Assembly (NCBI RefSeq): GCF_004765795.1
Contig: NZ_SBIV01000006.1
Location: 1-64,000, forward strand
Source: Halorussus marinus
Lineage (GTDB): Archaea; Halobacteriota; Halobacteria; Halobacteriales; Haladaptataceae
DNA: 64,000 bases
Reading direction: 5' to 3'
This document shows positions 1,234 to 41,063 of the stretch, piece after piece. The position numbers and the translations under genes were made by a program. The notes under the pieces are model-generated. The model worked only from the letters and a program-made list of their open reading frames with translations. It was not told the origin of the DNA and ran no database searches. Positions within the stretch are counted from its first letter, which is position 1. Each line of letters begins with the position of its first letter.

Positions 1234-2727
1234 ATGGGCTACCAGTTACGGAACATCTGCACAGACAGTACCGAAAAATTCTGGTACTTGGTCTGGATTC
1301 TCCCGGCAAGTGCCGTTCTCCCACTCCTCTTTGCACCTTTACTCATCCAGTACCGTGCAACCCGGGAAGTCGCAGGCTACTACCAAGCTCTCGCGTTTGC
1401 CCACGACGGACTCCAGTCATTCTCCTACCTCACCCCAAGAGAGAGCTTTAGTTCCCTCCACCTCTCAAGCCTCCTCACTGCACCATTCGCACACCTGGGT
1501 TTCGGCATACGGCTCGTCAGCATCACTGCCGCAATCGCCGCAACAATTCTCATCGGCCAGCTCGCATGGCACCGGTTCGGACGAACCGCAGGACTTCTCG
1601 CCCCACTATTCCTCTGGGCGCACCCGCTGTTCCTCCGCTTCTCGTATGGCGTCTTCCCGGAGGCACTCAGCATCGTACTCACGACGGGCGCAGTTGCCGC
1701 TATGTGGCGGTTCGTCGAGACTGATCATGACTGGTTATTCGGCCTTTCAGTTGCACTCCTCGTTCTCGCAATGGCGAATCACTTCTGGGAAGCCGTCATC
1801 GGCTTGCCGCTCTTCGTGATTCTCATCACCCGGCGGTACTACCTGCACGCACTCCTCCTGTCGCTTGTTACTGCCGGGACGGCCGGAACAATCTGGATGA
1901 TTCGTCGCGTCCTCGGTCCCGTTGAATCCGGGAAACTCCTCGAACGCGGAACCATCGTGACTGACCCGGGGCTTCTTGTGTCTAGCGACTACTGGCTCGC
2001 CCACCTCCAGTCGATTCACCCGGTCGACCTCATGTTTACGCTGACCCTTCCCACCGCACTTCTCGCGCTCGCGGGCAGCCTCCGCTGGTGGCTGGTATCG
2101 CGTGAGGAGCGCGCTCTTGTCCTCGCGGCATGGTTGACGAGCGGCCTCGTCATTCCGATTGGAATCCCGCCCGGGTATCTCACCCACGATTACTATCTGT
2201 GGGGCGTCCTCGCACCGCTCGCGCTCGCAGGCGGCGTTTTCGTGCAATACACTACAGGACGACTACGAGATCGGGGGCATCCACGGCTGGCAGGCCACAC
2301 GGTCCAGGCCGTAATCGTGCTACTCGTGTGTTCGGCATTCGGCTTCGGCCTCATTGTTGATGGGGGACTGCTCTCCGGCACGGGCGTCCCGGTTGCGGGC
2401 GAGTTCGACGGTCAATTAAGCGACCGGGATGGAATCGCGGTCAGTGAGCTGGCCGTCGCCGGGGAGGAAGTTGACCGCGCGGACGTGTCGGCAGCGAACG
2501 AGATCGTGTTTGTCGGAGACTGGAAACGCGGGTATTCTGGGCCAGTCGGAGTTGTTCTCGCGCAGACGGACGTATTAGTGAAGGGGTGGGAAGATCCACG
2601 GTACGAGCATCGGGGACGCCACGGTGCGTTTTCGCCACGGTTCGCTGATACTCCAGCGGCGGTTGAGGACTGCGGCGTGCAAGTCGTTCTCCATAATGAC
2701 GATAGTGTTGTGGTCCAGAGTTGTTGA
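1234..2727 (+). CDS. Polytopic membrane protein, GT-C/family-39-like glycosyltransferase
   Basis: About 497 residues from the ATG at 1234; the frame stays open to 1147 but the earlier stretch is Arg-rich and unlikely to be protein. About ten hydrophobic segments run from residue 17 to 400, followed by a soluble C-terminal domain of about 100 residues. The layout, a short N-terminal tail, an early extracytoplasmic loop and a long membrane region, resembles dolichol-phosphate-mannose or ArnT-type transferases. The usual acidic DE-type motif in the first loop is not obvious. A role in glycosylating surface proteins is plausible given the S-layer gene at 6393, but that is inference. Confidence 0.6.
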   Translation: MGYQLRNICTDSTEKFWYLVWILPASAVLPLLFAPLLIQYRATREVAGYYQALAFAHDGLQSFSYLTPRESFSSLHLSSLLTAPFAHLGFGIRLVSITAAIAATILIGQLAWHRFGRTAGLLAPLFLWAHPLFLRFSYGVFPEALSIVLTTGAVAAMWRFVETDHDWLFGLSVALLVLAMANHFWEAVIGLPLFVILITRRYYLHALLLSLVTAGTAGTIWMIRRVLGPVESGKLLERGTIVTDPGLLVSSDYWLAHLQSIHPVDLMFTLTLPTALLALAGSLRWWLVSREERALVLAAWLTSGLVIPIGIPPGYLTHDYYLWGVLAPLALAGGVFVQYTTGRLRDRGHPRLAGHTVQAVIVLLVCSAFGFGLIVDGGLLSGTGVPVAGEFDGQLSDRDGIAVSELAVAGEEVDRADVSAANEIVFVGDWKRGYSGPVGVVLAQTDVLVKGWEDPRYEHRGRHGAFSPRFADTPAAVEDCGVQVVLHNDDSVVVQSC

Positions 2728-2871
2728 GTTCGGCGCTCTACATACCGCGGCGTCCATTCTCTTCAGACCCTAATTGAACTATTCGTTCTTGTACAAGATA
2801 TAACTGAGTCCGACCAGTCTCAGCCTTGAGCATCGTCCCGTCGAACCAACTTCTGACATCCAGAGAGATCC

Positions 2872-5553
2872 ATGCCTGAACTCGGTACCAAAGACCTCGG
2901 CACGACCGAACTCGGAACGCCTAGTTCCCAGACCACCAGAACGCTCACCGCAACCGGCGCGCTCACTACCGCGTCTGGCGCCGGCGCAACCCTCACTACC
3001 ACCGGGACGCTCACCGCGACCGGCGCGATCGCGTCGACATCGCCCAGTGGCGCTGTCCTGAACATCGTCGACGAAACCACGTCCGAGCTCGGCGCTGGAA
3101 CGCTCGGCACCGGCGAGCTCGGCGTTGCCCCTAACCCCAACACCGTCACGCTGACGGCGCAGAGCACGACCGCGGACGCTCGCGGCGCGACCACGGATCT
3201 GCTCACCTCGACGACGCTGCTCGCGACCGGCGCGACCGCCAGGGTATCTACTCCTGGTGCGACGCTCAACACGATCTCGGGCGGCATCCTCGGCACCGGC
3301 GAACTCGGCGGTGGCGAGCTCGGCGTCGAGACTGGCACCTCGGGCGTGTTCATGTCCGCCGACGGAACGACCGCAGACGCATCGGGCGGTGGAAATGCGA
3401 AACTCATCTCGCTCGATCTGCCCGAGGTCGCGACCGGCAGTCGTGGCTGGCACGTCGAAATCGATCATCCATCCGGCCGCACGCTCTCGCCCGAGCTGCT
3501 CGACGACCCCCAGTTCACGCCCGTGCTGAACGGCCGACCGAGAGTGACGATCCCCGTCCCGCGCGACGAGAAGTGGCTGTCCGAGGCGTTCGACGAAGCA
3601 CGCCTCTCCGTCTGGAAGGACGGCCGGATCCTCCCGATCGACGAACTCATCTCGGTCCGCATGGAGCCTGGCCGGACGGTGCTCGTCGGACGGGGTGGAC
3701 GGGCGCTCGCTGGCCGGGTTCAGGCCGAGTACGACAACAAGCAAGCCCACGAGGCCGTCCGGGAGCTTGGCGAGGCGAACACTCCGTACGTGATGAACGT
3801 CGACGATCCCGCGACCTCGCTCCAGTCAGACCAGCTGATGCAGTCCGGCGACGACAGTAGCGAACTTCGCGGAGTACTTGTCGAGCCGATCGCGCCGACA
3901 GACCCCGTCGAAATCGTTGATGGCCAGCTGCAACTCCAGCAGTCGGCGGTCGTGAAAGAAGGCGAATCCGTCGCAGGGTTCTCGGTGAGTGGAGGAGAGT
4001 ATTCAGGTGGGGCTGCTGTCCAACACGAACTGCTCCCGAACACCTATACGTGGGATATCTCGTTCCTATACGACGTGGAGGCCGAACACGTCGGTATCGC
4101 CGTCCGGAACAAGATCGAAGATGGCTCCGACATCGAGGGCGTGAACTGGTACTTTAACGGCGAGCAGTTGGACTCCGTGACTGGCGGCTTCCTCCCGATC
4201 GAGTGGTCTGATTTCAGCGACGGCCCTCGATTCCAGGGCAGCGGATATAACGGCTACACTGGTGAAACATTAGAGGCAGGCGAGACGTACGAACTAGAAC
4301 TGGAGGTTGTCGACGACGGCTCTCCCGGCGGGTATCATGTGGATCTAGTTTCCGTCTACGACACCCGATTTAACTACACATGGGACAACGATAACGGCGG
4401 GAACGGCGGCTACCTTGATGGCCCCGAGTTGAAACCGGACGCGTTCGAGGTCGTGTTCGACGATGTCGCCTCTGCGTTCAACGTCGACACCGGACAGATC
4501 GATATCGGGATCGACGACACGTCCGGCGGGCAAGCGCTCGCCCTCTCAAACGACCGCGGAGGGTCGTACACCACGGCGTCAAACACCGACACGCTCGACG
4601 TCGACTTCCAGGACGCCGGGAGTACACTCCGCTGGAAAGTAACCCTCTCCCGGTACGGCAGTCGGACCGGCGAGACACCAAAACAGGGATTCAACAGCCA
4701 GTCACTAGATTCGTTCGAGCTCCGAGCAGACCTCGAGGACACGCCGGTGCTTACTCAGCAGACGTACGACGGTGCGCTCGTCGACGTCCTGAACCAGATC
4801 GCGGACTACGGTGACTTCATCTGGGAGTTCCGCCGTGAATCGCGCGACGAGTGGAGTCTCGAGTGGACGAAGCCCGGCCAGCGGACCGCGGACATCGACG
4901 ACGATATCGCGGACTATCAGGTGGAGAAGACAACTGAGCGCCGGTACGACCGCGCAATCATCAAGGGCGCGAACCAGCCCGTTCGCGGCGAGCGCTTCAC
5001 TGCCGTCGAAGGCTCGTGGGTGGACCTCAACCAGTCCTCTCTGGTGTCGGCGACGGAGACTGTGCGCGACCCGTCGAGCGGTGAGACGTTTGAACTCAAC
5101 CGCGATTTCGACCTCGACCGCCAGGAGGGCCGCATCCGAGTGCGGCCGGGTGGCGCGATGGCCGACGGCTCGGTCTATGAGATCGACTACGAATTCAAGA
5201 CCCGTGGATCGTACACTGCTGAGGACGCCGATGACGATCCGGACGAGATGGTGCGGACGATCTCGTCGATCACGTCGAACCGTGGCTGTGAGCAGGCGGC
5301 GCTCTACTTGATCCGCAACATCAAGGATCCGCTCTGGGAGGCGGAGGTAACCGTGTCGACAGCTGACGCAGGTCGGTCGCTGGTAGACGACCTCGCACTC
5401 GAAGGACTGCCGACGCGCGGTGAGCGGATGGAGATTCAGGAGATCCAGCAGACGCCCCAGGAGGTCGTGTTGCGGCTCGGGAGCCGGCAATCGGTTGGTG
5501 AGGTCGTCAACGATATTCAGTCCTGGATCAGCACGGTCAGCGAACGGGTCTAG
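2872..5553 (+). CDS. Provirus tail-hub/baseplate-like protein with N-terminal ELG repeats
   Basis: 893 residues. Residues 1-165 contain three imperfect units built from 'LGTxELG' motifs followed by Thr/Ala-rich beta stretches (ELGTPSSQ, GTGELGVAP, GTGELGGGELG). The middle (about 250-560) is acidic and Gly/Tyr-rich and looks like an inserted beta-sandwich, perhaps carbohydrate-binding. From about 615 to the end the pattern is that of phage tail-hub or late-control proteins: a 'VLNQIADYGDFIWEF' segment, then a 'DYQVEKTTERRYDRAIIKG' stretch, then a beta-rich end. No membrane segment. It is a large structural gene left in a region that also carries an integrase remnant. The assignment rests on pattern, not on a search. 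Confidence 0.55.
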   Translation: MPELGTKDLGTTELGTPSSQTTRTLTATGALTTASGAGATLTTTGTLTATGAIASTSPSGAVLNIVDETTSELGAGTLGTGELGVAPNPNTVTLTAQSTTADARGATTDLLTSTTLLATGATARVSTPGATLNTISGGILGTGELGGGELGVETGTSGVFMSADGTTADASGGGNAKLISLDLPEVATGSRGWHVEIDHPSGRTLSPELLDDPQFTPVLNGRPRVTIPVPRDEKWLSEAFDEARLSVWKDGRILPIDELISVRMEPGRTVLVGRGGRALAGRVQAEYDNKQAHEAVRELGEANTPYVMNVDDPATSLQSDQLMQSGDDSSELRGVLVEPIAPTDPVEIVDGQLQLQQSAVVKEGESVAGFSVSGGEYSGGAAVQHELLPNTYTWDISFLYDVEAEHVGIAVRNKIEDGSDIEGVNWYFNGEQLDSVTGGFLPIEWSDFSDGPRFQGSGYNGYTGETLEAGETYELELEVVDDGSPGGYHVDLVSVYDTRFNYTWDNDNGGNGGYLDGPELKPDAFEVVFDDVASAFNVDTGQIDIGIDDTSGGQALALSNDRGGSYTTASNTDTLDVDFQDAGSTLRWKVTLSRYGSRTGETPKQGFNSQSLDSFELRADLEDTPVLTQQTYDGALVDVLNQIADYGDFIWEFRRESRDEWSLEWTKPGQRTADIDDDIADYQVEKTTERRYDRAIIKGANQPVRGERFTAVEGSWVDLNQSSLVSATETVRDPSSGETFELNRDFDLDRQEGRIRVRPGGAMADGSVYEIDYEFKTRGSYTAEDADDDPDEMVRTISSITSNRGCEQAALYLIRNIKDPLWEAEVTVSTADAGRSLVDDLALEGLPTRGERMEIQEIQQTPQEVVLRLGSRQSVGEVVNDIQSWISTVSERV

Positions 5554-6392: not shown

Positions 6393-8768
6393 ATGACAAC
6401 GACAAACGACAAGATCCGCAGTGTGGTGCTGTCTGCGCTAATGGTCATGTCCGTATTCGCGGGCGCGACCGCCTTCGCAGGCTCAGCCGCAGCGAATCAC
6501 GGCGCAGACTCAGCAGAGTCGCTGACGACTCCCAATTCATATTGGGATGGTGAAGAGCTTACAATTGACATTACTAACATTTACGACGACGCTGTCGCCA
6601 ACGACGACACTCTCGAACTGCGCGAGTGGGACGGTAGTGACGACGGCGTCGGCTCCCGCGTCACGCAGATCCCGCTCTCCGAAGGGACCGCCACTCTCGA
6701 AGAGGACGGTCTCGACGGCCAGTACGTCATCACGACCACTGGCCGGGAGCCGATCGTCTTCGACTCCGAAGAGGGTCCTTTCCTCTATGAGGACGCCGGA
6801 GACGTGACCGGAACTTACTCGGAAAGCGACGCTGTGTTCTCGTTCTCCGAGCAGGAGTTCAACGTGACTCCCGACAGTGTCAACGTGAGCTCTGGCAGTA
6901 ACTCGATCACGGATGTCGAGATCGACTCGAACCGTGGCCGCTACAAAATCAACGTTTCCGCCGACGGCGACCTGAGCGCAAACGAACTCTACGATGCGTT
7001 CTATGGCGAACTCCCAGGTGACGCAGACGATCCTGTGAGTGAAGACAACATCGAAAAGCACAGCGCCGACGACGGTAGTCACAGTGAGGCCGGCACGCAA
7101 AGTTCAATCATCATCTCCGGCGCGTCGACCGATTCAGTTTACAGCGCCGACTTCAGTGAGTTCGAAACCGACGAGTACGAACTCACGTACCAGGTCGTCG
7201 ACGCAGCGGGCGAAGACACGATGGACGTCAACGTCTCGGAAGCCGGCGACGCCGATGTCCGACTCCCGAACGACGTTGTCTCGAACGAGCGCGGTGACGA
7301 CATCGAGTTCAACGTCTCGTTCGAAAACACCGAGACTGCCGACTTCCAGTTCGGTGACACCGAAGCCAACTTCGTGACTCGGTTCCGGGTCACGCAGGGT
7401 GATGACTTCGAGACAGACAACGTCACGCTGACCATCGAAACGGACGAAATCACCGACCAGAACGATCCGACTGAGTTCATCAATGCCGAGTACGGCTCGG
7501 TCACTGCGCCCGGCTACGACAGCAGTGGTGACGGCGATTACTACGGTGTCTGGACGGGCGGCAACATCGAGCTGGAGAACGATGACGGATCTGCCGTCAC
7601 GGACGACAAGAGCACGCTTGGGTCCGCGATCGCGAAAGGGAACTACGATCTGAGCGCGTACCTCACGGACACGGCTGACGCGTATCAGGATCGGGCCGAC
7701 AAGACGAGCATCAATATCGCGCAGCGCTCGACTGACGCTGTCGATACGTGGGTTATCCCTGACTCCGGGTCGCCGGACGACCTCGATGCGCTCCTCGATA
7801 AAGTTAACAACAGCGACACGATCACGTCCAGCGGTATGCTCGTTGTCGAGGTCCAGGCATCGGGAATCTACGGCTACATCGACGATACGGGCGACTTCAC
7901 TGGCTCGGATAACAACGAGGTCGGCCACGATGCAGACGACTACCTCGAAAACAACGGTAAGAACGGCGTCTTCGTGAACGTCACGCAAGACGACGCGGGT
8001 CCGAACGCGGTGTCGTCCCAGTACTACGCGACCGCCGCTCAGCAGTACTACGAGGATGCGGAGAACAACACGTTCTACCTCACCTTCGATACCTCCAGCA
8101 TGGGTAACGGCGACGGTCTCGTGACTGGCAACTCCTACACCGCGAACTTCTCGGTGCTCGAGGAGTACAACGCGTTCACCGACGATAATGAGGAAGTGTC
8201 CTCGGAGTTCAACTACGAAGAGCAGGATGTTGAGCTCAGCAATCTGAACGACGATGACGAGCTCATGCTCCCGAACTCGGAGAACGCGACGATCGAGGGC
8301 ACGAGCAACCTCCCGCCGGGTACCGAGGTCGATGTTGAGGTCGAATCCTCGGGTAACTACTGGTCGGACAACCCCGAACTCGACGCTGATGGCGAGTTCT
8401 CGACGAACTTCGACCTCACTGAGCTTGAGAACGGGACTGAAGTCGACGTAACTGCGTCCGCTGGTAGTGCCGAGCACGAAGTGAGTGCGACTATCATGTC
8501 CGACTACGAGCAGGACGGCGGCGAGGACGAGACGACGACCGAAGAGACGACCGAAGAGACGACCGAGGAGACGACCGAAGAGACGACCGAGGAGACGACC
8601 GAGGAGACGACCGAAGAGACGACCGAAGAGACGACCGAGGAGACGACCGAAGCGACCGAAACCACGGAAGGTGACGGTGGCGACGGTGGCATCCCCGGCT
8701 TCGGCATGGCTGTCTCGCTGGTCGCGCTCATCGCGGCCGCGCTGCTGGCAGTCCGCCGTAGCAACTAA
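6393..8768 (+). CDS. csg: S-layer surface glycoprotein precursor (PGF-CTERM)
   Basis: 791 residues. The start 'MTTTNDKIRSVVLSALMVMS' with cleavage after 'SAAA' (about residue 34) is the typical haloarchaeal surface-glycoprotein signal peptide. The body is very acidic, beta-rich and has many N-X-S/T sites (NVT, NVS, NFS, NAT) for AglB-type N-glycosylation. Residues 712-755 are a Glu-Thr tandem repeat, the usual O-glycosylated stalk. The C-terminus 'GIPGFGMAVSLVALIAAALL' followed by 'AVRRSN' is a PGF-CTERM signal for archaeosortase A and lipid attachment. It should be the main cell-envelope subunit. A 9-bp hairpin follows the stop. The gene is monocistronic with AT-rich upstream DNA. Confidence 0.9.
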   Translation: MTTTNDKIRSVVLSALMVMSVFAGATAFAGSAAANHGADSAESLTTPNSYWDGEELTIDITNIYDDAVANDDTLELREWDGSDDGVGSRVTQIPLSEGTATLEEDGLDGQYVITTTGREPIVFDSEEGPFLYEDAGDVTGTYSESDAVFSFSEQEFNVTPDSVNVSSGSNSITDVEIDSNRGRYKINVSADGDLSANELYDAFYGELPGDADDPVSEDNIEKHSADDGSHSEAGTQSSIIISGASTDSVYSADFSEFETDEYELTYQVVDAAGEDTMDVNVSEAGDADVRLPNDVVSNERGDDIEFNVSFENTETADFQFGDTEANFVTRFRVTQGDDFETDNVTLTIETDEITDQNDPTEFINAEYGSVTAPGYDSSGDGDYYGVWTGGNIELENDDGSAVTDDKSTLGSAIAKGNYDLSAYLTDTADAYQDRADKTSINIAQRSTDAVDTWVIPDSGSPDDLDALLDKVNNSDTITSSGMLVVEVQASGIYGYIDDTGDFTGSDNNEVGHDADDYLENNGKNGVFVNVTQDDAGPNAVSSQYYATAAQQYYEDAENNTFYLTFDTSSMGNGDGLVTGNSYTANFSVLEEYNAFTDDNEEVSSEFNYEEQDVELSNLNDDDELMLPNSENATIEGTSNLPPGTEVDVEVESSGNYWSDNPELDADGEFSTNFDLTELENGTEVDVTASAGSAEHEVSATIMSDYEQDGGEDETTTEETTEETTEETTEETTEETTEETTEETTEETTEETTEATETTEGDGGDGGIPGFGMAVSLVALIAAALLAVRRSN
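8530..8660 (+). repeat. Tandem 12-bp coding repeat (GAGACGACCGAR)
   Basis: About ten near-identical copies of GAGACGACCGAR (R is A or G) encode the (E)ETTEETT stalk of the S-layer protein. The third-base A/G alternation is the main variation. Such arrays change copy number easily by slippage, which would change stalk length in steps of four residues without a frameshift. Confidence 0.85.
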
Positions 8769-30575: not shown

Positions 30576-31889
30576 ATGACAGCCACGCCCCAAAGCGAAC
30601 TGAAAAGCCGACTTACCACGCTCGCGGAGAGCGCAGAAGACGGCGAAATCGACACTGACGACCACGACGCCATCAAGTCATTCATCGCCGCCTACAACCC
30701 AAACGACCTGCTGGAAACGCCGCCCGGCAACGACTCGACTCTGAAAACCGGAACCTGCAACGTCTACATCTCCCGTCTCACCGAAGCAGCCCGACGAATC
30801 ACGCTCACTGACGCTACCGCTGACGACGTGAACGGGATTCTTCAATCGCTCAGCGACGCTGACCGCTCCGAGTGGACCGTTCACGGCTATTCAACGGCCT
30901 TCCGCAAATTCTACACTTATTACGAGGGCGGACCTGACCCTGACGAGATTACTATGATAGACACGCCGAACGAAAGTGCGTTTAGCCCTGACGATATGCT
31001 TACGCCCGACGAAATCCACGAGTTACTCAACAGCGCCGATAATCCGCGCGACCGCGCCGTATTCGCGCTGCTCATATACACCGGAATGCGGAACAACGCC
31101 CTCCGTACACTCCGCATTGGCGACGTTTATCCACAGGAAGGCGAATGGCAGGTCAACACCGACCGAACAGACGGCCTGAAAGGCGTTGAAAAGTACGGAC
31201 AGCGGCGGCCGCTGTTAGCTGCTGTCAAACCCGTCCGCGACTGGCTTTCCTACCATCCGGAGAGCGACAACCCCGACGCCTACCTCATCACGGGCCGACC
31301 AAAGTACGGGAAGTCTGACCCCTCCAGCCCGGTCGCCGGGTCAACTATTCGGCGCGTCGTTGACCGCCTTGTTGACGCCGCCGACAATCCGTCCATCAAC
31401 CGCAAGCCGACGCACCCACACATGATGCGGCACAATTTCGTCACCATATGTAAGAGAGATTATGGTCTGCCCGACGAAACAGTCAAACATTTTATCGGTC
31501 ATTCGCCCAGCTCGCGGGTCATGGAAACGACCTACTCCCACCTGTCGGATGAAGACCACATCGAGCGCGCCGAGGTGGCGGCAGGACTCCGCGAGCCGTC
31601 CGAGGACGACTCGCCGCTCACGCCCAAAGGTCCGTGCCCGACCTGCGACGAGCCACTTGCTCCCGGCGCGAAGGCGTGTCCCAACTGTGGGCAGGTGTTC
31701 ACTCCCGATGCGAAGGCTATTGAAGACAAAATCGATACCGACCTGAAACAGTCCTACGCCCGAGTGGACCCAGACGACGAAAGCACACAGGAAGCGCTTA
31801 ACGCCCTCGACACACTCACTCAACACCCTGACATCCTTAAGAAGCTCACACAAAACTCTGAAACAATAGAAAAACTCCGTGATAAATAG
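30576..31889 (+). CDS. int: Tyrosine recombinase (integrase) with C-terminal zinc ribbon
   Basis: 437 residues. SAM-like N-terminal domain (about 20-125), catalytic domain with Arg in 'YTGMRNNALRTLRIGDV' (about 171), Lys in 'GLKGVEKYGQRR', His/Arg in 'HPHMMRHNFVT' (about 282), 'FIGHSPSSRVMETTYSHL' with the nucleophilic Tyr at about 320. Residues 350-372 add a zinc ribbon 'CPTCDEPLAPGAKACPNCGQ', then a helical tail. It is intact and 65 nt from attL, so it is the likely enzyme that inserted the element at sucC. Codon use is less G+C-rich than its neighbours. Confidence 0.92.
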   Translation: MTATPQSELKSRLTTLAESAEDGEIDTDDHDAIKSFIAAYNPNDLLETPPGNDSTLKTGTCNVYISRLTEAARRITLTDATADDVNGILQSLSDADRSEWTVHGYSTAFRKFYTYYEGGPDPDEITMIDTPNESAFSPDDMLTPDEIHELLNSADNPRDRAVFALLIYTGMRNNALRTLRIGDVYPQEGEWQVNTDRTDGLKGVEKYGQRRPLLAAVKPVRDWLSYHPESDNPDAYLITGRPKYGKSDPSSPVAGSTIRRVVDRLVDAADNPSINRKPTHPHMMRHNFVTICKRDYGLPDETVKHFIGHSPSSRVMETTYSHLSDEDHIERAEVAAGLREPSEDDSPLTPKGPCPTCDEPLAPGAKACPNCGQVFTPDAKAIEDKIDTDLKQSYARVDPDDESTQEALNALDTLTQHPDILKKLTQNSETIEKLRDK

Positions 31890-32193: not shown

Positions 32194-32619
32194 TCAGTCG
32201 TCCCCCTCGACGGTCACACGCCCGCCGTCAGTCGCCACAGCGCCCGTCTCAGCCGTCGCCGCGACCGCCGCCTCGACCCGCGCCCGCCGCTCGTCAAACC
32301 GAGCGATGAGGCGCTCGTCAAACGCGCGCTCGTCGTCCGCCGCATCGAGCACGGCGCCGAGCTGCGCGTCGCGGGCGCCGGTCCAGAATTGGACCCGTCG
32401 GACGTGCTTGCAGCCGCCCTCGGGCGAGCGGTGCTGGTAATCGGGGCAGGTGCAGCGCCCCTCAATGTGGTCGACCTCGTACCGCGTGCCCTCCTCACTG
32501 TAGATTTCGTACACGCCGCCGCCGACCGCGTGGGGCAGCAGGTGCTCGGTGAGAGCGCGCACGTCGCGGGCGTCGAGATTTTCGAGCGTTTCAAGTTCGT
32601 CGGTGGTTTTCTCGCACAT
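32194..32619 (-). CDS. SWIM zinc-finger protein
   Basis: 141 residues. 'YEVDHIEGRCTCPDYQHRS' continuing with 'PEGGCKHVRRVQ' is a CxCxnCxH SWIM domain. SWIM domains mediate DNA or protein binding and are common in haloarchaeal plasmids and proviruses. The rest is helical and charged. The gene is divergently transcribed from the HTH gene at 32856, with shared repeat-containing DNA between them. Confidence 0.8.
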   Translation of the reverse strand: MCEKTTDELETLENLDARDVRALTEHLLPHAVGGGVYEIYSEEGTRYEVDHIEGRCTCPDYQHRSPEGGCKHVRRVQFWTGARDAQLGAVLDAADDERAFDERLIARFDERRARVEAAVAATAETGAVATDGGRVTVEGDD

Positions 32620-32720: not shown

Positions 32721-32824
32721 TTCGTACGTGCGTATTTACCTTAAACCCTGATATCGGCTTCGAAGGATGTTCTTGTGCAATTAGTACGTTTGTGCGAACA
32801 AAGTAATAGGGCGTACATACGAAC
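32721..32824. promoter_or_regulatory. Three related operator-like repeats in the divergent promoter
   Basis: Between the SWIM gene and the HTH gene lie TTCGTACGTGCGTA (32721-32734), GTACGTTTGTGCGAAC (32784-32799) and GTACATACGAAC (32813-32824). They share GTAC, a purine-rich spacer and CGAA(C). The spacing to both starts and the neighbouring HTH protein suggest sites for an element repressor. Confidence 0.4.
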
Positions 32825-32855
32825 ATTTTTCTGTTTATCGCTCATTCGTGTAAGC

Positions 32856-33131
32856 ATGGGAAACGGGGACCCCGAGAGTAGTAGCGGCCGCCCGCGCCGC
32901 GTCAGCGACGACGACATTCTCCACGCCGTCCGCGAGGTCGCCCGAGAGGACCGCGTCGCCACAACCAGCGAGGTCGAGGACCGCGTCGCTCTCTCCCGCC
33001 GCGGCGTCCAAAAACGCCTACGCGACCTCCACGAGCGCGGCAAAATCCAGAGCAAAGAGGTTGGCGCACGAGGGCGCGTTTGGTGGGTTGAAGATAGTCA
33101 CTTGCCCGACAACGAGGATAACACTGAGTGA
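32856..33131 (+). CDS. Small winged-helix DNA-binding protein
   Basis: 91 residues from the ATG at 32856; the frame extends to 32775 but the extra stretch includes the operator repeats. 'RVSDDDILHAVREVAREDRV' and 'SRRGVQKRLRDLHERGKIQS' form a winged helix with recognition helix, ending in an aromatic 'GRVWWVED'. Probable repressor or activator of the element, located beside the likely operator repeats. Target unknown. Confidence 0.75.
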   Translation: MGNGDPESSSGRPRRVSDDDILHAVREVAREDRVATTSEVEDRVALSRRGVQKRLRDLHERGKIQSKEVGARGRVWWVEDSHLPDNEDNTE

Positions 33132-33176: not shown

Positions 33177-33488
33177 TTAATTCTCAGACGTAGCTGATTC
33201 GGGCTCGTGGAGTGTAATTGTTCCATCAGTCTCAACCTGAACAGTGTAACTGTCGTATTTAAACTGGACTTGACCATCTGTGGTACGGGGTATTCCGCTT
33301 GACCGAGGGCCGAAAAGCGCGTCGAGAGCCTCTGGGTCAATGAAATTCGAAAGAACCGCCAACTCGGCCGGTTCAGCATCATTCAATGCGGCAACAGCGG
33401 AGATGAGTTCCTCGCTTACGGATTCTTCTTCGGGATTGCACGTTGTCTGATACGTCGTTGAATTTTCTGTGTTCGAGTCGTTAGTCAT
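33177..33488 (-). CDS. HalOD1 domain protein on the element
   Basis: 103 residues: a polar N-terminus, then 'SEELISAVAALNDAEPAEL' and 'FIDPEALDALF', a beta pair 'QVQFKYDSYTVQVETDGTIT'. It is the same family as the gene at 23187. Its ATG lies immediately beside the left end of the IS630 copy, so its original upstream DNA was probably displaced by the insertion. Confidence 0.75.
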   Translation of the reverse strand: MTNDSNTENSTTYQTTCNPEEESVSEELISAVAALNDAEPAELAVLSNFIDPEALDALFGPRSSGIPRTTDGQVQFKYDSYTVQVETDGTITLHEPESATSEN

Positions 33489-33500
33489 GGGGGCTGATAC

Positions 33501-34018
33501 TCACAGACATAAGTACGTGAAGACATCTGGAACTTCGATCCGATTGAGTGCAGAGAGCGCAGCATCACGAAGATCGTCGAGTGTGTCGAACAGACGGTTT
33601 CCAAGTTCTTGATCGAGTTGTCGCCAGCACTCTTCCGCGGGGTTCAGCTCTGGTGAACCCCGCGGAAGGTAACACAGTTCGATCGGCGTGTCTTCGACGA
33701 ATTCCTGCACTGCGTTGGCCGTAAAATACGAGGCGTTGTCCAAGACAACGCAGATTTTCTCGCCGAACTCGGTTTGGAGGGCGTCTAGCAAGCGAATCGT
33801 CGTGTCGCTGTTGAAGTTCTCGGCACAGGGGAGAAAGAACGTTTCTCCGGAATCGCTGACCGCACCGAGCAGCTTGATGCTGTCCCACGCGCCCGTCACC
33901 GGCAGTGACGGGCGCTCTCCTTCTGGAAACCACGCATAGATCAGCGTCGAGAGTACCTGGCGCGTCTGATCGATGGTCAGGATCGTGTATTCATCGTCCA
34001 AGTTGTCGCGCTTTTTTT
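33501..34018 (-). CDS. IS630 transposase, catalytic part (frame B)
   Basis: Entered by a -1 shift at the A7 run (T7 on the plus strand, 34012-34018); an in-frame ATG is also present at 34001. DDE residues are visible: Asp in 'ILTIDQTRQVL', Asp in 'VVLDNASYFTANAV', Glu in 'SPELNPAEECWRQL', the IS630 signature. About 166 residues as an independent frame. The -1 shift joins it to the DNA-binding half. Confidence 0.82.
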
Positions 34019-34522
34019 GAACCCTTCCTGCCAGGCTTCTTGGGCCCTTTCGTCGGATTTGTAGAACTCCGGCCGGGCTGTCTTCCAGGACAGCCCGGCC
34101 TCAGACATCAATCGTCGGACGTGGCGTTCACAGTACTCAACATCGAATTCTTCGGCAAGGTAGTGACGAGCTAGTGGAACAGACCACGCGGGCGCATCTA
34201 GCCCAGCTTCCTCGGGTGATTCGTGGAGTGCCTCAACGAACTTGTCGTGCTGTTGGCCAGAGAGCTCAGACGGTCTCCCGGAACGGTGTTCGTCGTAGAC
34301 AACCTCCTCGAACGGCTCGTCGGCGAGCCGTTCGAGTCGGTCAAGCCAGCGTGAGAGCCAGCCAGCAGTGTATCCGTAGCGTTCAGCAACATCTTCCATC
34401 GTCGCTTCGTCTTCTTCGAGGGAGTTGATCGCCGCCATAACCCGCTGTGTCGGCTTTTTCCCCTCGACCTCTGCCAAGACCTGGCGGAGGTCGTCGGTAG
34501 ATACGTCGTTGAGGGAAGCCAT
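33977..34522 (-). CDS. IS630 transposase, DNA-binding part (frame A)
   Basis: 181 residues. HTH segments 'MEDVAERYGYTAGWLSRWLD' and a second around 'YCERHVRRLMSEAGLSWK' bind the IS ends. The frame runs out shortly after 'GFKKSATTW'. A -1 shift on the A7 run at 34012-34018 would give 'FKKKRDNLDDEYTIL', joining it to the DDE domain. Alternatively this copy is a natural two-frame IS. Confidence 0.78.
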   Translation of the reverse strand: MASLNDVSTDDLRQVLAEVEGKKPTQRVMAAINSLEEDEATMEDVAERYGYTAGWLSRWLDRLERLADEPFEEVVYDEHRSGRPSELSGQQHDKFVEALHESPEEAGLDAPAWSVPLARHYLAEEFDVEYCERHVRRLMSEAGLSWKTARPEFYKSDERAQEAWQEGFKKSATTWTMNTRS

Positions 34523-34914: not shown

Positions 34915-35589
34915 TCACGCGCCCGAGGCGTGGTCGCCGAGCGTTGTCTGCCGTTCGAACCGTTCAAGAATATTATACCGCTCACCGCGCGTCACGCTCG
35001 TCGTGTCGACGCTCTCGACCCCGAGCGCCTCAGCCCACGCCAGCGCGTCCGCGAACCCCGCCGCCGGCGGCCGCCCGATATGTACCGACAGCCCCGCGTC
35101 GTGGGCCGCCTCGGTCAGCTCCTCGGCGTGCGACAGCTTCCAGCGGTCCGACCCGCCGATGAACACGGTCGCCGCGTTCACGGCCTCCGCGAGCGCCAGC
35201 ACCCGCGCCGGCGTCATCCCGTCCTGTGCCGCGACCGCTCGGGGCAGCGTCGAGCTCCCGAGCCCCCGCGCGTCGAGCCGCTTCGCGAACGTTCGGGTTC
35301 GCAGCTCCGACGCGTCGGCGTCGCCGACCACGTCCGGCAGCACCACAAACTCCGGCTCGCGCCCGTTCGCGCGCTCCGGTATCTCCTCAACCCGCGACAG
35401 CCACGCGTCCGCCGACCACTCCTCGGGGCGCTCACGCGCCGCGAAACACCCGTTGTCGAGCGCGTAGGGCACGTTCACGCCCGCCGTGAATCGCTCCGGC
35501 AGCCACATCGCGCCGTGACAGTGCGAGGGCGCCGCCGCTCGACACTTCCGCAGCTTCTCGACCGTCGGCACGCCGTGTAAAATCAGCAT
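34915..35589 (-). CDS. TGT/DpdA-like transglycosylase (predicted 7-deazaguanine insertion enzyme)
   Basis: 224 residues. In order: 'YALDNGCFA' (Asp45, aligning with the TGT DSGGYQ base-binding motif), 'FVVLPDVVGD' (Asp86, TGT Asp156), 'AVAAQDGM' (Gln122, TGT Gln203), 'VFIGGSDRWK' (Gly-Gly, TGT GGLAVGE), 'VHIGRP', then 'LGVESVDTTS' (Asp195, TGT nucleophile Asp280). The zinc site of tRNA-guanine transglycosylases is absent and the protein is much shorter, as in phage DpdA proteins. Likely TIM barrel exchanging guanine for a 7-deazaguanine in DNA. Last of a three- or four-gene block. Function is inferred from motifs only. Confidence 0.65.
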   Translation of the reverse strand: MLILHGVPTVEKLRKCRAAAPSHCHGAMWLPERFTAGVNVPYALDNGCFAARERPEEWSADAWLSRVEEIPERANGREPEFVVLPDVVGDADASELRTRTFAKRLDARGLGSSTLPRAVAAQDGMTPARVLALAEAVNAATVFIGGSDRWKLSHAEELTEAAHDAGLSVHIGRPPAAGFADALAWAEALGVESVDTTSVTRGERYNILERFERQTTLGDHASGA

Positions 35590-35600
35590 GGGGCGCCGGG

Positions 35601-36206
35601 TTATCGTCGGTCGCCCTCGTCGTCGTCGTCACCCGGCGGCCATTTCCCCCGGCGCTTGAGCCGCTTGCGCTCGCTCTCGTACGCCGGTCGACCGCGCCGA
35701 ACCATCCGCCCGTTCACGTTCAGACGGTCCGGCCCCTCGGGCTCGTCGCCGTCGCCGTCGTCGGCGTTCGCCGAGAGGTTCTCGCTGTATTGCTCCATCG
35801 TCCCATTAATCGCCGCGTCCGAGCCCGAGGCGTCGGCGTTCGCCGAGAGCGCGCCCGGGCCGTCGACGTTGGTCGCGCCGCGTTCACGCGCCGTCCCGGC
35901 GGGCATCCCGCCCGAGTCGTCGTCGCGGTCGAGCTCCTTGACGGCGTCGCGCGACGCCTTCGCGTGGGGGGTTCCGAACCCCGGGCCGGGGATGTCGTGG
36001 CCCGCGACCGCGTTCGCCGCCAGCGTGTTCACGTCGCCGCTCACGGGGCTCGCGCCGGTCATATCCGCCACGATGAGCGCCATATCCCGCAGCACGTCGG
36101 TATCGAACGTGCGGAGGGCGGCCTCGTCGCGGTCGGTGTTCGCCGCGATAGTCTTGATGAACGTCGCTCGCGTCGCGTCGTCGTCGTGGTCGTCGTCGTT
36201 CGTCAT
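35601..36206 (-). CDS. Acidic element protein with LxANA repeats
   Basis: 201 residues from the ATG at 36206. An Asp-rich N-terminus, then a helical region, then repeated 'TIAANTD', 'NTLAANAVAG', 'GALSANADASG', 'ENLSANADDG' motifs, ending in a basic patch 'ERKRLKRRGKW' and an acidic tail. No family recognised. It ends 11 nt before the DpdA-like gene and must be co-transcribed with it. It could be an accessory or DNA-binding partner, but nothing proves this. Confidence 0.6.
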   Translation of the reverse strand: MTNDDDHDDDATRATFIKTIAANTDRDEAALRTFDTDVLRDMALIVADMTGASPVSGDVNTLAANAVAGHDIPGPGFGTPHAKASRDAVKELDRDDDSGGMPAGTARERGATNVDGPGALSANADASGSDAAINGTMEQYSENLSANADDGDGDEPEGPDRLNVNGRMVRRGRPAYESERKRLKRRGKWPPGDDDDEGDRR

Positions 36207-36425
36207 GGTAGTGTCGTGGTGTCGAGGCGCCGCCGGTGCCCGCCGCTCTCGTCGTCGCGCTCGTCGCTGCTCGCGGCTCGGCTCGTCGTCGCTCAACCGC
36301 TGGAGGGCACGCCGTCGCACTCTATCGGGGTGTTACCGCGCCTCAACCATCAGTGTTCCCCACAGAGCCCCGCAGAAACGCCTACTTGCGTTATAACCGC
36401 GTTAAATCCCTTCGTTCAGCTCAGC

Positions 36426-36701
36426 TCAGACCGACAGTAACTCCTCAATATCCTCCTGGTCGAGCTCACCGTCCCGAATCCGCTCCCCAATCGCCTCCGG
36501 GTCGTGTCCACGCGCCCGCAGCTCGCCCCGCACCTCCCGCGGCGCGAACGGCAGTGACTCCGCCAGCACCCGCCACGGCGCGCTCCGCAGCCGCGCCGCA
36601 CGCCGCTCCGACTCGTCCGACGGGTCGAACGCCAGCCGCCCCTCATCGTCTAACAGCGCGCTCCCACTCCCGCTCTCGTCGCCGCTGTCACGGTTACTCA
36701 T
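36426..36701 (-). CDS. Hypothetical acidic element protein
   Basis: 91 residues: a polar N-terminus, 'FDPSDESERRAARLRSAPWR', and a helical 'AIGERIRDGELDQEDIEELL'. Composition fits real haloarchaeal protein. It lies between the HTH-type gene (36778) and the repeat protein (35601) in the same direction, so it belongs to the element's main operon. No family recognised. Confidence 0.55.
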   Translation of the reverse strand: MSNRDSGDESGSGSALLDDEGRLAFDPSDESERRAARLRSAPWRVLAESLPFAPREVRGELRARGHDPEAIGERIRDGELDQEDIEELLSV

Positions 36702-36777: not shown

Positions 36778-37656
36778 TCACGCGCCCTCGCTCTCACTCT
36801 CGCTCCCGTCCTCGACCTCGGCCTCACCCGCCTCAGCGTCGAGTTCCACGTCGTCGTCGCTCGCCGCCGGCGGGTCCAGCAGCGTCGCCCGGTCGCCCTC
36901 GTTCACATCATCGTCTGACAACCACAACGCGAGCTGCCCGCGCGCTACGTCGTCCTCAATCACATCTGCCGGCGCCTCACCCCGCTGCGCCCACTCCGGC
37001 GGCTCGTCCGGAATCTCCACGTCCGACTGGTCCTCCACGATGGTTTTCCGCGACCGCCACCGGCTAATCTCCCCCACGCGCTCCAGCGCCGCGTCCAGCT
37101 CCTCCGCGTCCCACTCTCCCGACCCCAGCCCACTGTGCTCACGGTCCCCGCTCCCGCCGTGTTCACGCGCCCCTCGGCCCCCGACGCTGTCGCCGCCCCC
37201 GTCGAGGTCGGCGTCGAGCCCGAGCACGTCAGCCCACGCCCGCGCCTCTTTCCCCGCCTTCTCCAACGCCCGCCAATCCTCCTCGCCCGCGTCGAGCAGG
37301 CCACGAACCACTCGGTTCCGTACCACCGACAGGTCCGCCACGAAGTCCTCACGGTCTACGTTCTCCGCGAGATACGTCCGGAGCCGCTTCTTGTCCTTAC
37401 AGATGGTTGCCGCCGACACGTCACACTCCTCTGCCCATCGTGACGGGCTCACGTCGTCCACCGTCGTCGGCCCCGACTCCGACAGCACCAACTCCAGCAG
37501 GTACGCCCGGCGCTCACGCCACCCCATCTCCGCCGGCGCCTTGTCGCCCGGCACGCTCACCTCCATGTAGTCCACACGCGGTCCCTCACCGCCGTCGTCG
37601 TCATCGTCGCTATCGCTCCCGCTCGCCGTGTTCGTGGTCGTGTTCTTCGCCGTCAT
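36778..37656 (-). CDS. Element HTH protein with acidic tail
   Basis: 292 residues. An Asp-rich N-terminus is followed by 'GWRERRAYLLELVLSESGPT' and 'SPSRWAEECDVSAATICKDK', which look like a helix-turn-helix with a recognition helix, then a helical 'VVRNRVVRGLLDAGEEDWRA' region and a very acidic C-terminal 80 residues. This layout resembles phage terminase-small-subunit or replication-accessory HTH proteins. It lies upstream of the DpdA-like gene block. Role uncertain. Confidence 0.6.
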   Translation of the reverse strand: MTAKNTTTNTASGSDSDDDDDGGEGPRVDYMEVSVPGDKAPAEMGWRERRAYLLELVLSESGPTTVDDVSPSRWAEECDVSAATICKDKKRLRTYLAENVDREDFVADLSVVRNRVVRGLLDAGEEDWRALEKAGKEARAWADVLGLDADLDGGGDSVGGRGAREHGGSGDREHSGLGSGEWDAEELDAALERVGEISRWRSRKTIVEDQSDVEIPDEPPEWAQRGEAPADVIEDDVARGQLALWLSDDDVNEGDRATLLDPPAASDDDVELDAEAGEAEVEDGSESESEGA

Positions 37657-38602: not shown

Positions 38603-40237
38603 TCAATCCGCCGGCGGTGACTCGACCGGCGGCGGGTCTTCCGGTATCTGCGCCGGCCGCGGCCGCCCGAGCTCCTCCCACTCCTCGCGGGCCTCCCGCA
38701 GCGCGTCGAGCGTCGCGTCGTCACGCGCCTCGACCCACGACTCGTCGCCGAGGTACTCGTCGGCCTCCCACATCGGCCGCAACTGGCCGCGACAGCGGGG
38801 CGCCGAGGTCGAGGTCGACTCAGCGTCGGCCTCGCTCTCGTCGCCACTGCTCGCCCCTGTGGGGTCGTCAACGAACGCCGGCCGATGGTCGCTTCCCGCC
38901 GGCACGTCCCACGCTCTGGACTGCGCCGAGGCGTCCCACGCCTCGGCCTCGGTCGCGTCGAGCTCGCCCGCCGGCGCGGGTGCGTCGTCGCTCCCGTTCC
39001 ACGTCGCCCGCGGCCCGAGGTCGTCGGGCGCCCGCCCGGTGGCAGTCACACCCGACCCCGACGCGACCCGGACCGCCGCCGGCGTCTCGGGTGTCGCGGG
39101 GTCGCGCGGCTCGGCGTCGGCGTCGGCGTGGTCGTGCGCGTCGGCGTCGGCGTCCTCGACCGGCGCCGAGCAGCGGGGTTCGGGAAACTCGACGCCGAGC
39201 ACGTCGGGCGCCGCGGACCGCAGCGCCGCCGTCGCCTCGGCGCGCACGTCGTCGTACGCCTCGAAATTCGCCACCTCACCGAATTGCCGGATTGCCGACC
39301 GAAACGCGCCGTCGTCGCCGAGCCGCAGCCCGGTGTGACTCACCGCGTACAGCGTCGCCCGCGCCAGCGCGACGAGGTCGCGGATAGACGTCGAGGAGTC
39401 CGGGTCGGCCTCGGTGATTCGCTCGACCACCACGCCGGTCTGCTCCTCTATCTCACGCGTCACAGCGCCGCCCTCAACCCAGTCCGAGACGGCGATAACG
39501 TGGAAGTGGGGCGCGTAGACCAGAAACTCGTCGCGGACGGCCTCCCACGTCCAGTCGTCGCTCTCGACCTTCCCGAGCACGTCCGCCCACGTCATATCGC
39601 CGTCGCCCGACTCGTGACCCTTCACCTCGCCGCGATACTCCTCGGTGATTCGCCACGGGTGATAGATTATCGTCCCCGTATCTACACTGATTTGCCGCAT
39701 CAGACGCTTTACGACCTGAAACCCGCGGTCGAGCGGGTCTTTGGCGTTCACGCGGAACCCGATTCCGGCGAGCGAAACCGTGAGGTGGTGTTTCTTGACG
39801 CTCCGGCCGGATTGGGCGCCCCACGTCTTCGCGAGCGACTGGGTTTTGGCGACCGGCTCGACCGCCCGCTGGAACGCCCACGACTGCCAGCAGCGCGGAC
39901 ACCGCGAGCGCCGGCATGTCCGGCCGACCGAGACGGGCTCCCCGCAGTCGCCACAGAACAGCGCCGATATCTCGTCGCCGCAGTCGTCGCCCTTCGCGCC
40001 CGAGCCCGGCGAGACGCCCTCGGTCAGCTCGTCGTCGTACGCTCGACCGTCCGGCTCGCTCACCTCAATCGCGTTCCACGTCTCCCGGTCCGGGTGGAGG
40101 GTCACGCGCCGCCGGTCGTGGTCGGCGTCCTCGGGCGCGTCCGTCTCGAAACACACTGCCGACGCGGTCGAGCTGTCGGCCGCGCGGCTCGACCCCGGCG
40201 TGTCCGGTACGCCCGCCGGCGTCCCCGGTGGGCTCAT
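38603..40237 (-). CDS. HUH-type replication initiation protein (Rep)
   Basis: 544 residues. An N-terminal zinc-finger region 'LFCGDCGEPVSVGRTCRRS' and 'RCPRCWQSW' (about 93-120). Then the rolling-circle Rep core: 'KKHHLTVSLAG' (motif I), 'YAPHFHVIAVSDW' (motif II, HUH, about 245), and 'LARATLYAVSHTGL' (candidate motif III Tyr, about 299). The C-terminal 190 residues are acidic, Asp/Ala/Pro-rich linker ending in a helical 'DALREAREEWEELGRP'. It probably nicks the element's origin to start rolling-circle replication. It starts inside the stop of the small upstream gene (ATGA). Confidence 0.75.
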   Translation of the reverse strand: MSPPGTPAGVPDTPGSSRAADSSTASAVCFETDAPEDADHDRRRVTLHPDRETWNAIEVSEPDGRAYDDELTEGVSPGSGAKGDDCGDEISALFCGDCGEPVSVGRTCRRSRCPRCWQSWAFQRAVEPVAKTQSLAKTWGAQSGRSVKKHHLTVSLAGIGFRVNAKDPLDRGFQVVKRLMRQISVDTGTIIYHPWRITEEYRGEVKGHESGDGDMTWADVLGKVESDDWTWEAVRDEFLVYAPHFHVIAVSDWVEGGAVTREIEEQTGVVVERITEADPDSSTSIRDLVALARATLYAVSHTGLRLGDDGAFRSAIRQFGEVANFEAYDDVRAEATAALRSAAPDVLGVEFPEPRCSAPVEDADADAHDHADADAEPRDPATPETPAAVRVASGSGVTATGRAPDDLGPRATWNGSDDAPAPAGELDATEAEAWDASAQSRAWDVPAGSDHRPAFVDDPTGASSGDESEADAESTSTSAPRCRGQLRPMWEADEYLGDESWVEARDDATLDALREAREEWEELGRPRPAQIPEDPPPVESPPAD

Positions 40238-40541: not shown

Positions 40542-41063
40542 CTTAGTCGATAGACTGCTTGATAATCACATGACCCGACAGACGGAGGTCGCCCAAATGC
40601 TCAAGAAGCCGGAGATACGACTAACGAACGAACCTCAACCGGTGTCGGTTGTGGGTTCGTTGTCGTCTCCGACGAGCATTCCGCCCGTCTGGGGTCATCA
40701 CGGTGCTGAGCGTCGGGGTGAGGGTTAATCACCGCCACTACCCCGGCGCTTTCTTCCGTTCTGGCGTGTCCTGTTTTGAGAGACGGGTGGGCTCGCGTCA
40801 ACTAAAGCACTGCGCAAGATTCATGGCTCTCAAGGCCTGAGAACGCAGAAATCGCAACTTCGTTGCTAACGCCGTTATCGTATATGTGTCATTACTCTCC
40901 GATAGATTTCAGGAATCTCCATCCAGCAAAAGGACCGAAATGCTAACTTTGTTTGATTCCGGTTGTGGAGACGCCGAGGTAGGCTCGCTTTTGGGGCGTG
41001 GCCTCCTCGGCGGATTCCGATACTACTAACTCTCGTCCGAGGAAAATACCGTGCGAGCCACTA
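40542..41063. other. Right end of the element, no supported gene
   Basis: About 520 bp, lower in G+C, with weak open frames on both strands (for example 40571-40728 plus strand). It must now supply the promoter for sucC: TATA-like CGATACTAC near 41018 and a GAGG at 41038 are candidates, neither well placed. The promoter of the Rep operon should lie near 40560-40640. Confidence 0.45.

Follow-up and report, generated by a model that had tools for sequence, protein, structure and literature searches.

Does the short reading frame at positions 34915-35589 of this Halorussus marinus DNA (a stretch of 64,000 nucleotides, called the window below) encode an enzyme that inserts a 7-deazaguanine base into the DNA of a mobile element? 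The frame runs on the minus strand, starts with ATG and codes for a protein of 224 amino acids (aa), with a GC content of 0.88 at the third codon position. Its product shares 54% identity with the nearest homologue, from another species of the same genus, 32-36% with four homologues on haloarchaeal plasmids and about 28-37% with phage homologues. It is a genuine gene, referred to here as tgt-like for its resemblance to tRNA-guanine transglycosylases (TGTs); its product and the related proteins are called the compact family.

The initial annotation had read in this protein five TGT-type motifs in order, both active-site aspartates and the loss of the tRNA-type zinc site, and these observations are borne out. 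DNGCF (residue 45), LPD (84), AQDG (121), GGSDRWK (145) and ESVD (192) follow one another, with HIGR at residue 170, and none of 200,000 shuffled versions of the protein reproduces the ordered set. In alignment, the active-site residues D45 and D195 correspond to D89 and D264 of the E. coli TGT and to D72 and D215 of DpdA, the DNA preQ0 insertase, from phage 9g. Likewise, D86 corresponds to D143 and D114, and G145-G146 to G213-G214 and G162-G163. Q122 is aligned with Q187 of the E. coli enzyme, but the 9g DpdA has H141 there. H170 falls on H196 of the 9g DpdA in the hhalign register; Hutinet et al. (PMC6884629) describe position 196 as a conserved DpdA histidine that DpdA2 lacks. Residues D45, P85, D86, G124, G145, G146, H170 and D195 are invariant in all 39 compact-family members compared, and Q122 has a single exception. 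The zinc ligands of the E. coli TGT (CxCxxC at 302/304/307, and H333) are located C-terminal to the aligned part; this site and the C-terminal part are absent from the window protein, which possesses just three scattered cysteines (16, 24 and 48). Together with the fold match described below, the alignment to TGT would place D45 and D195 in one pocket.

Structure prediction, proposed as a check by the initial annotation, gave a confident barrel. The AlphaFold model, computed with the window protein and viral relatives aligned as input, has a pLDDT of 91.1 and a pTM of 0.89, and its strands and helices alternate. In a fold search of the PDB, the top two matches are TGTs (E 3-4e-5) and TGTs make up most of the list. 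The bacterial DpdA 7ui4 ranks ninth (E 7.8e-5), but its solved chain has 413 residues against 224. The TIM barrel is a superfold, and the scores of non-TGT barrels come close in this search; hence, the fold alone lacks specificity. Several phage proteins annotated as queuine tRNA-ribosyltransferases match the model in the viral structure library BFVD. The same fold is also matched by an 877-aa ART-PolyVal-like phage protein (BFVD A0A6J5LU57), and this predicted similarity suggests that the barrel domain occurs within polyvalent proteins as well.

The kinship with DpdA is settled by sequence comparison rather than by the fold. An hhalign comparison of the compact family with seven canonical phage DpdAs gave a probability of 96 and an E-value of 2.4e-9, with D45, D86, the GG pair, H170 and D195 in register; the unrelated barrel IGPS, used as a control with a roughly assembled alignment, reached a probability of 0.2. 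Searched against 4,491 decoy open reading frames (ORFs), the family HMM recovered 7/7 canonical phage DpdAs (E 7e-6 to 0.02) and zero unrelated proteins. In the reverse direction, the DpdA HMM recovered about 25 compact-family ORFs and one haloarchaeal DpdA/TGT homologue. Direct hhalign comparison with the TGT profile scores weakly (probability 5), with the register kept, so that the kinship with TGT rests on fold and register and not on score. The window protein therefore belongs to the TGT/DpdA superfamily and is nearer to DpdA than to TGT. The TGT/DpdA relation claimed earlier is thus confirmed by profile search on the DpdA side. Of the more specific DpdA-like reading, the superfamily and the closeness to DpdA stand, but the protein belongs to a separate, compact family and canonical DpdAs are longer.

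This family has largely escaped the family databases. The window protein has no match in Pfam, NCBIfam or PADLOC, even at E = 10, and a sequence search of the PDB returned no matches with either the protein or the family profile as query. Only PHROGs contains a match, phrog_15826 (E 3.6e-28), annotated as a family of unknown function. The Pfam TGT family PF01702 does not match the window protein; as a DpdA detector this profile proved useless, missing even the canonical DpdAs of the phages Sonali and R29Z. With tblastn, 22 phage and 170 plasmid records match the family, and viral contigs hold hundreds more members (549/600 candidates confirmed). Among genomes of the same order, the gene is present in 21/392, spread over 14/95 genera. 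The distribution is sporadic and mobile, and the family is widespread on phages and on bacterial and haloarchaeal plasmids. In the literature searched, no report of activity was found for any member, nor any published description of the family or of its haloarchaeal plasmid branch. Some members are already called 'DpdA-like tRNA-guanine transglycosylase' by actinobacteriophage annotators (Phegasus, Sonali gp81, Aoka). These proteins belong to the same family, with about 30% identity and identical active-site residues; however, they come from bacteriophages and not from archaea, and 'DpdA-like' is an annotation. The present comparison gives a name to a family outside Pfam, NCBIfam and PADLOC.

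Among characterized systems, the phage DpdAs (Enterobacteria phage 9g, CAjan) are the closest. They share with the compact family the in-register profile homology, the acid/base and nucleophile aspartates, the PDVVGD/LDxIGD motif, the GG loop and the equivalent of His196; moreover, preQ0 genes lie next door in the related viral contigs of the compact family. On the other hand, they measure 283-357 aa against about 200-224 aa, 9g has H141 where the compact family keeps the TGT-like glutamine, the haloarchaeal compact members have no adjacent preQ0 genes, and the activity of the compact proteins is a prediction. Because of its shorter length and lack of the canonical C-terminal region, the protein is filed as a compact variant and not as a canonical DpdA. 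Profile methods have identified DpdA2 of Vibrio phage nt-1 as a divergent branch of DpdA, but it is reported without the conserved histidine that the compact family keeps (PMC6884629). The compact protein resembles TGT and ArcTGT in its fold and in five positions for substrate binding or catalysis, but it lacks the zinc site, the C-terminal part and the PUA domain and stays below Pfam TGT detection.

The haloarchaeal virus HVTV-1, cited as a precedent by the initial annotation, turns out to be a weak one: it carries dPreQ1 in its DNA yet encodes no DpdA (PMC6884629). A direct link was also dismissed, as no halovirus record is matched by the window protein or by a haloarchaeal plasmid homologue. 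Better precedents are found in solo DpdAs working with host preQ0, namely those of HRTV-29 (PMC8651126), Salmonella phage 7-11 (PMC6884629) and Pantoea phage MED16 (PMC8306585). HRTV-29 is similar in setting, a haloarchaeal mobile element with a DpdA and no preQ0 genes (PMC8651126). Its DpdA is probably different from the compact family, since no halovirus is among the 22 phage records matching the latter. The authors of the MED16 study distinguished seven DpdA-like clusters (PMC8306585), and the compact family may be among them.

The viral relatives provide the link to 7-deazaguanine. QueC or QueD lies within the fetched stretch beside the compact gene in 38/80 viral loci, a set skewed towards a single conserved peptide pattern, with many near-identical loci; among representatives under 72% identity, preQ0-gene neighbours are present in 8/17. 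QueC and QueD are always on the same strand as the compact gene, nearly all within 75 bp and mostly at a distance of ≤27 bp or overlapping. For example, the order in one viral locus (L041) is QueD, QueC, compact gene, with QueC overlapping the last. On a DpdA-rooted tree of 39 compact proteins, three clades out of four contain preQ0-linked members: a proteobacterial plasmid/phage clade (L084), an actinophage/Vibrio phage clade (Sonali, R29Z) and a large phage clade. In the haloarchaeal clade, no preQ0 genes adjoin the compact gene. The association of the wider family with 7-deazaguanine is thus supported, but that of the haloarchaeal clade comes only through the family.

Canonical DpdA was found in 0/22 viral contigs searched whole, many of which are fragments, so that this absence is not proof. 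In many phages, the compact protein is the sole visible candidate for base insertion. Two phages possess the compact gene, a canonical DpdA and preQ0 genes together: in Arthrobacter phage Sonali (L008), the compact enzyme and the canonical DpdA are located at 4884-5501 and 7871-8761, and in Vibrio phage R29Z (L012) at 4767-5351 and 2638-3588. The compact enzyme may have a different or accessory role there. In phage Phegasus, which has a compact-family gene, neither a canonical DpdA nor QueC was detected. Furthermore, in phages and plasmids that lack preQ0 genes, the compact gene repeatedly has genes of the PAPS reductase family in its vicinity (L010:5598-6515, L007:6343-7386, L013:5626-7434, L015:2497-3636), perhaps marking another modification route.

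The ability of the host to make preQ0, claimed from the outset, is confirmed by its genome, which encodes QueC (C1:416465, E 7e-73) and an ArcTGT/ArcS pair. QueC was present in 11/11 of the gene-bearing haloarchaea tested. The window element itself carries no Que genes.

The preferred reading, to which a probability of roughly 0.6 is given, is that the gene encodes a compact DpdA that puts host-made preQ0 into the DNA of the element and gives it resistance to restriction; we infer that the enzyme acts on DNA, that the inserted base is preQ0 and that the element benefits through protection. Asp195 would attack C1' of the deoxyribose of a DNA guanosine, guanine leaving and a covalent D195 intermediate being formed, with Asp45 as the general acid/base. 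The incoming 7-deazaguanine would be bound by Asp86, Gln122 and Gly145-146 before its attachment to the sugar. As the host already makes preQ0 for archaeosine and would supply it, the element would need to bring nothing but the inserting enzyme. Once modified, its DNA would resist restriction by the host or by rivals. The chemistry is already known, and the compact version is the new part. If the reading is true, 7-deazaguanine DNA reaches small archaeal plasmid-like elements without biosynthetic genes, and a minimal DNA base-exchange enzyme of about 200 aa becomes of use for the study of mechanism and as a tool. It would also identify the inserting enzyme of the many phages with QueC/QueD but no recognised DpdA. 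A bolder version can be put forward only tentatively: a widespread third class of DNA-guanine transglycosylase, a near-bare barrel, which on archaeal rolling-circle elements would act on replication intermediates with host preQ0, so that archaeal integrative plasmids, and not tailed viruses alone, would carry 7-deazaguanine DNA.

The main rival concerns the substrate. The same exchange chemistry could take place on free (deoxy)nucleotides or nucleosides, a polymerase then incorporating the modified dGTP, or on RNA. The case for DNA is weakened by the bare catalytic barrel, in which no nucleic-acid-binding domain is visible, and by the two phages with a canonical DpdA, where the DNA step is already covered; moreover, the 7-deazaguanine DNA of Campylobacter phages has been proposed to arise through nucleotide-level routes (PMC6884629). 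However, the closest profile is that of DpdAs, which are DNA enzymes and have the histidine in common with the compact family, and on most preQ0-encoding contigs the compact protein is the only inserting enzyme found. For RNA in particular, no tRNA-binding domain accompanies the protein. A nucleotide-level or RNA substrate is hence regarded as rather unlikely.

Removal of the base instead of its insertion appears improbable. Under such an explanation, the protein would be a glycosylase or hydrolase removing or salvaging 7-deazaguanine from DNA or nucleosides, for example against a Dpd-type defence of the host. Small changes can turn a retaining transglycosylase into a hydrolase, and a genome of the same order contains DpdA/TGT paralogues that could be part of a host modification system. 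Nevertheless, the overlapping operons with the base-making QueC and QueD suit insertion better, and the complete base-recognition set is retained. A slightly lower probability still is given to a role as accessory subunit, itself catalytically silent, of another TGT or DpdA, in the manner of the second subunit of the eukaryotic TGT: possible partners exist, the canonical DpdA in Sonali and R29Z and ArcTGT and ArcS in the host, but both catalytic aspartates are invariant (39/39) and most records lack another inserting enzyme. Finally, an unrelated TIM-barrel enzyme with TGT-like motifs acquired by convergence would agree with the similar E-values of non-TGT barrels and the weak direct TGT match, but is very improbable given the reciprocal HMM matches to DpdA among the decoys, the hhalign E-value and the preQ0 genes as neighbours.

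Neighbourhoods of the haloarchaeal relatives are varied. In the locus of the nearest homologue (G031; L156:7867-10049), the start of the homologue overlaps the end of a rolling-circle Rep gene (PF23343) and the homologue adjoins genes for a YgjP-like metallopeptidase and for type I restriction. Others adjoin DNA cytosine methyltransferases, a setting counted in favour of the preferred reading; in Halorubrum lacusprofundi pR1SE2 (L004, 11905-12672), the homologue is found near two such genes. Vesicle transfer is a known trait of the pR1SE lineage. Around the plasmid homologues, a conserved unnamed 240-aa protein is encoded in 8 loci and DUF6884 in 6 loci, and several haloarchaeal loci also have a RecB/Cas4-like nuclease (set: L003, L005, L006, L198, L201, L204); the three together are a candidate conserved cassette of haloarchaeal plasmids. 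DUF6884 and DUF4326 were considered as pathway partners and set aside: they recur in haloarchaeal plasmids and are absent from the window element, and the literature search found no paper linking them to the pathway. On a haloarchaeal chromosome (G003, L159:8434-9675), a 413-aa TGT/DpdA homologue has a large helicase and an ATPase-like gene as neighbours; the group may be a Dpd-type island of the host.

In the window, the putative compact DpdA is carried by an element with a tyrosine integrase (30576-31889, plus strand; C-terminal zinc ribbon; PF00589, E 3e-18; phrog_1, E 2.5e-28) and a rolling-circle replication initiator (38603-40237, minus strand), encoded about 10 kb apart. The latter has a cysteine-rich zinc region and a PHFHV (HUH) motif and is a relative of RepA from SNJ1 and HJIV1, two viruses of haloarchaea. 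Behind the integrase gene follow a small cargo protein with a weak SWIM zinc-finger match (32194-32619, minus strand, E 0.11), a winged-HTH regulator of halovirus type (32775-33131, plus strand; phrog_18890, E 1.5e-7) and a HalOD1 domain protein (33177-33488, minus strand; PF18545, E 3.3e-21). An IS630-type insertion sequence sits inside the element, between the HalOD1 and tgt-like genes; judging from the translations, its transposase (33501-34522, minus strand) is split over two frames that overlap (33977-34522 and 33501-34001).

The minus-strand run behind rep ends with the tgt-like gene. This run further comprises a hypothetical gene with an HTH-like N-terminal part, recognised by eye (36778-37656; phrog_15023, unknown function, E 1.4e-14), a hypothetical 91-aa gene without family match (36426-36701) and, 11 bp upstream of the tgt-like gene, a hypothetical gene for an acidic haloarchaeal protein, also without family match (35601-36320). 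This last gene is probably co-transcribed with the tgt-like gene, and its true start is probably an internal ATG near 36206. None of the other elements with a related Rep has the compact gene, which is therefore seen as cargo.

That the element is integrative, as was first claimed, agrees with the tyrosine integrase and the rolling-circle Rep, but the flanking att repeat was not found: the sequences immediately outside the element share no direct repeat longer than 9 bp. An inverted match of 13 bp, GCCACGCCCCAAA, lies close to both outer ends of the element, at 30582-30594 and 40990-41002; it is not a direct att repeat and is possibly due to chance.
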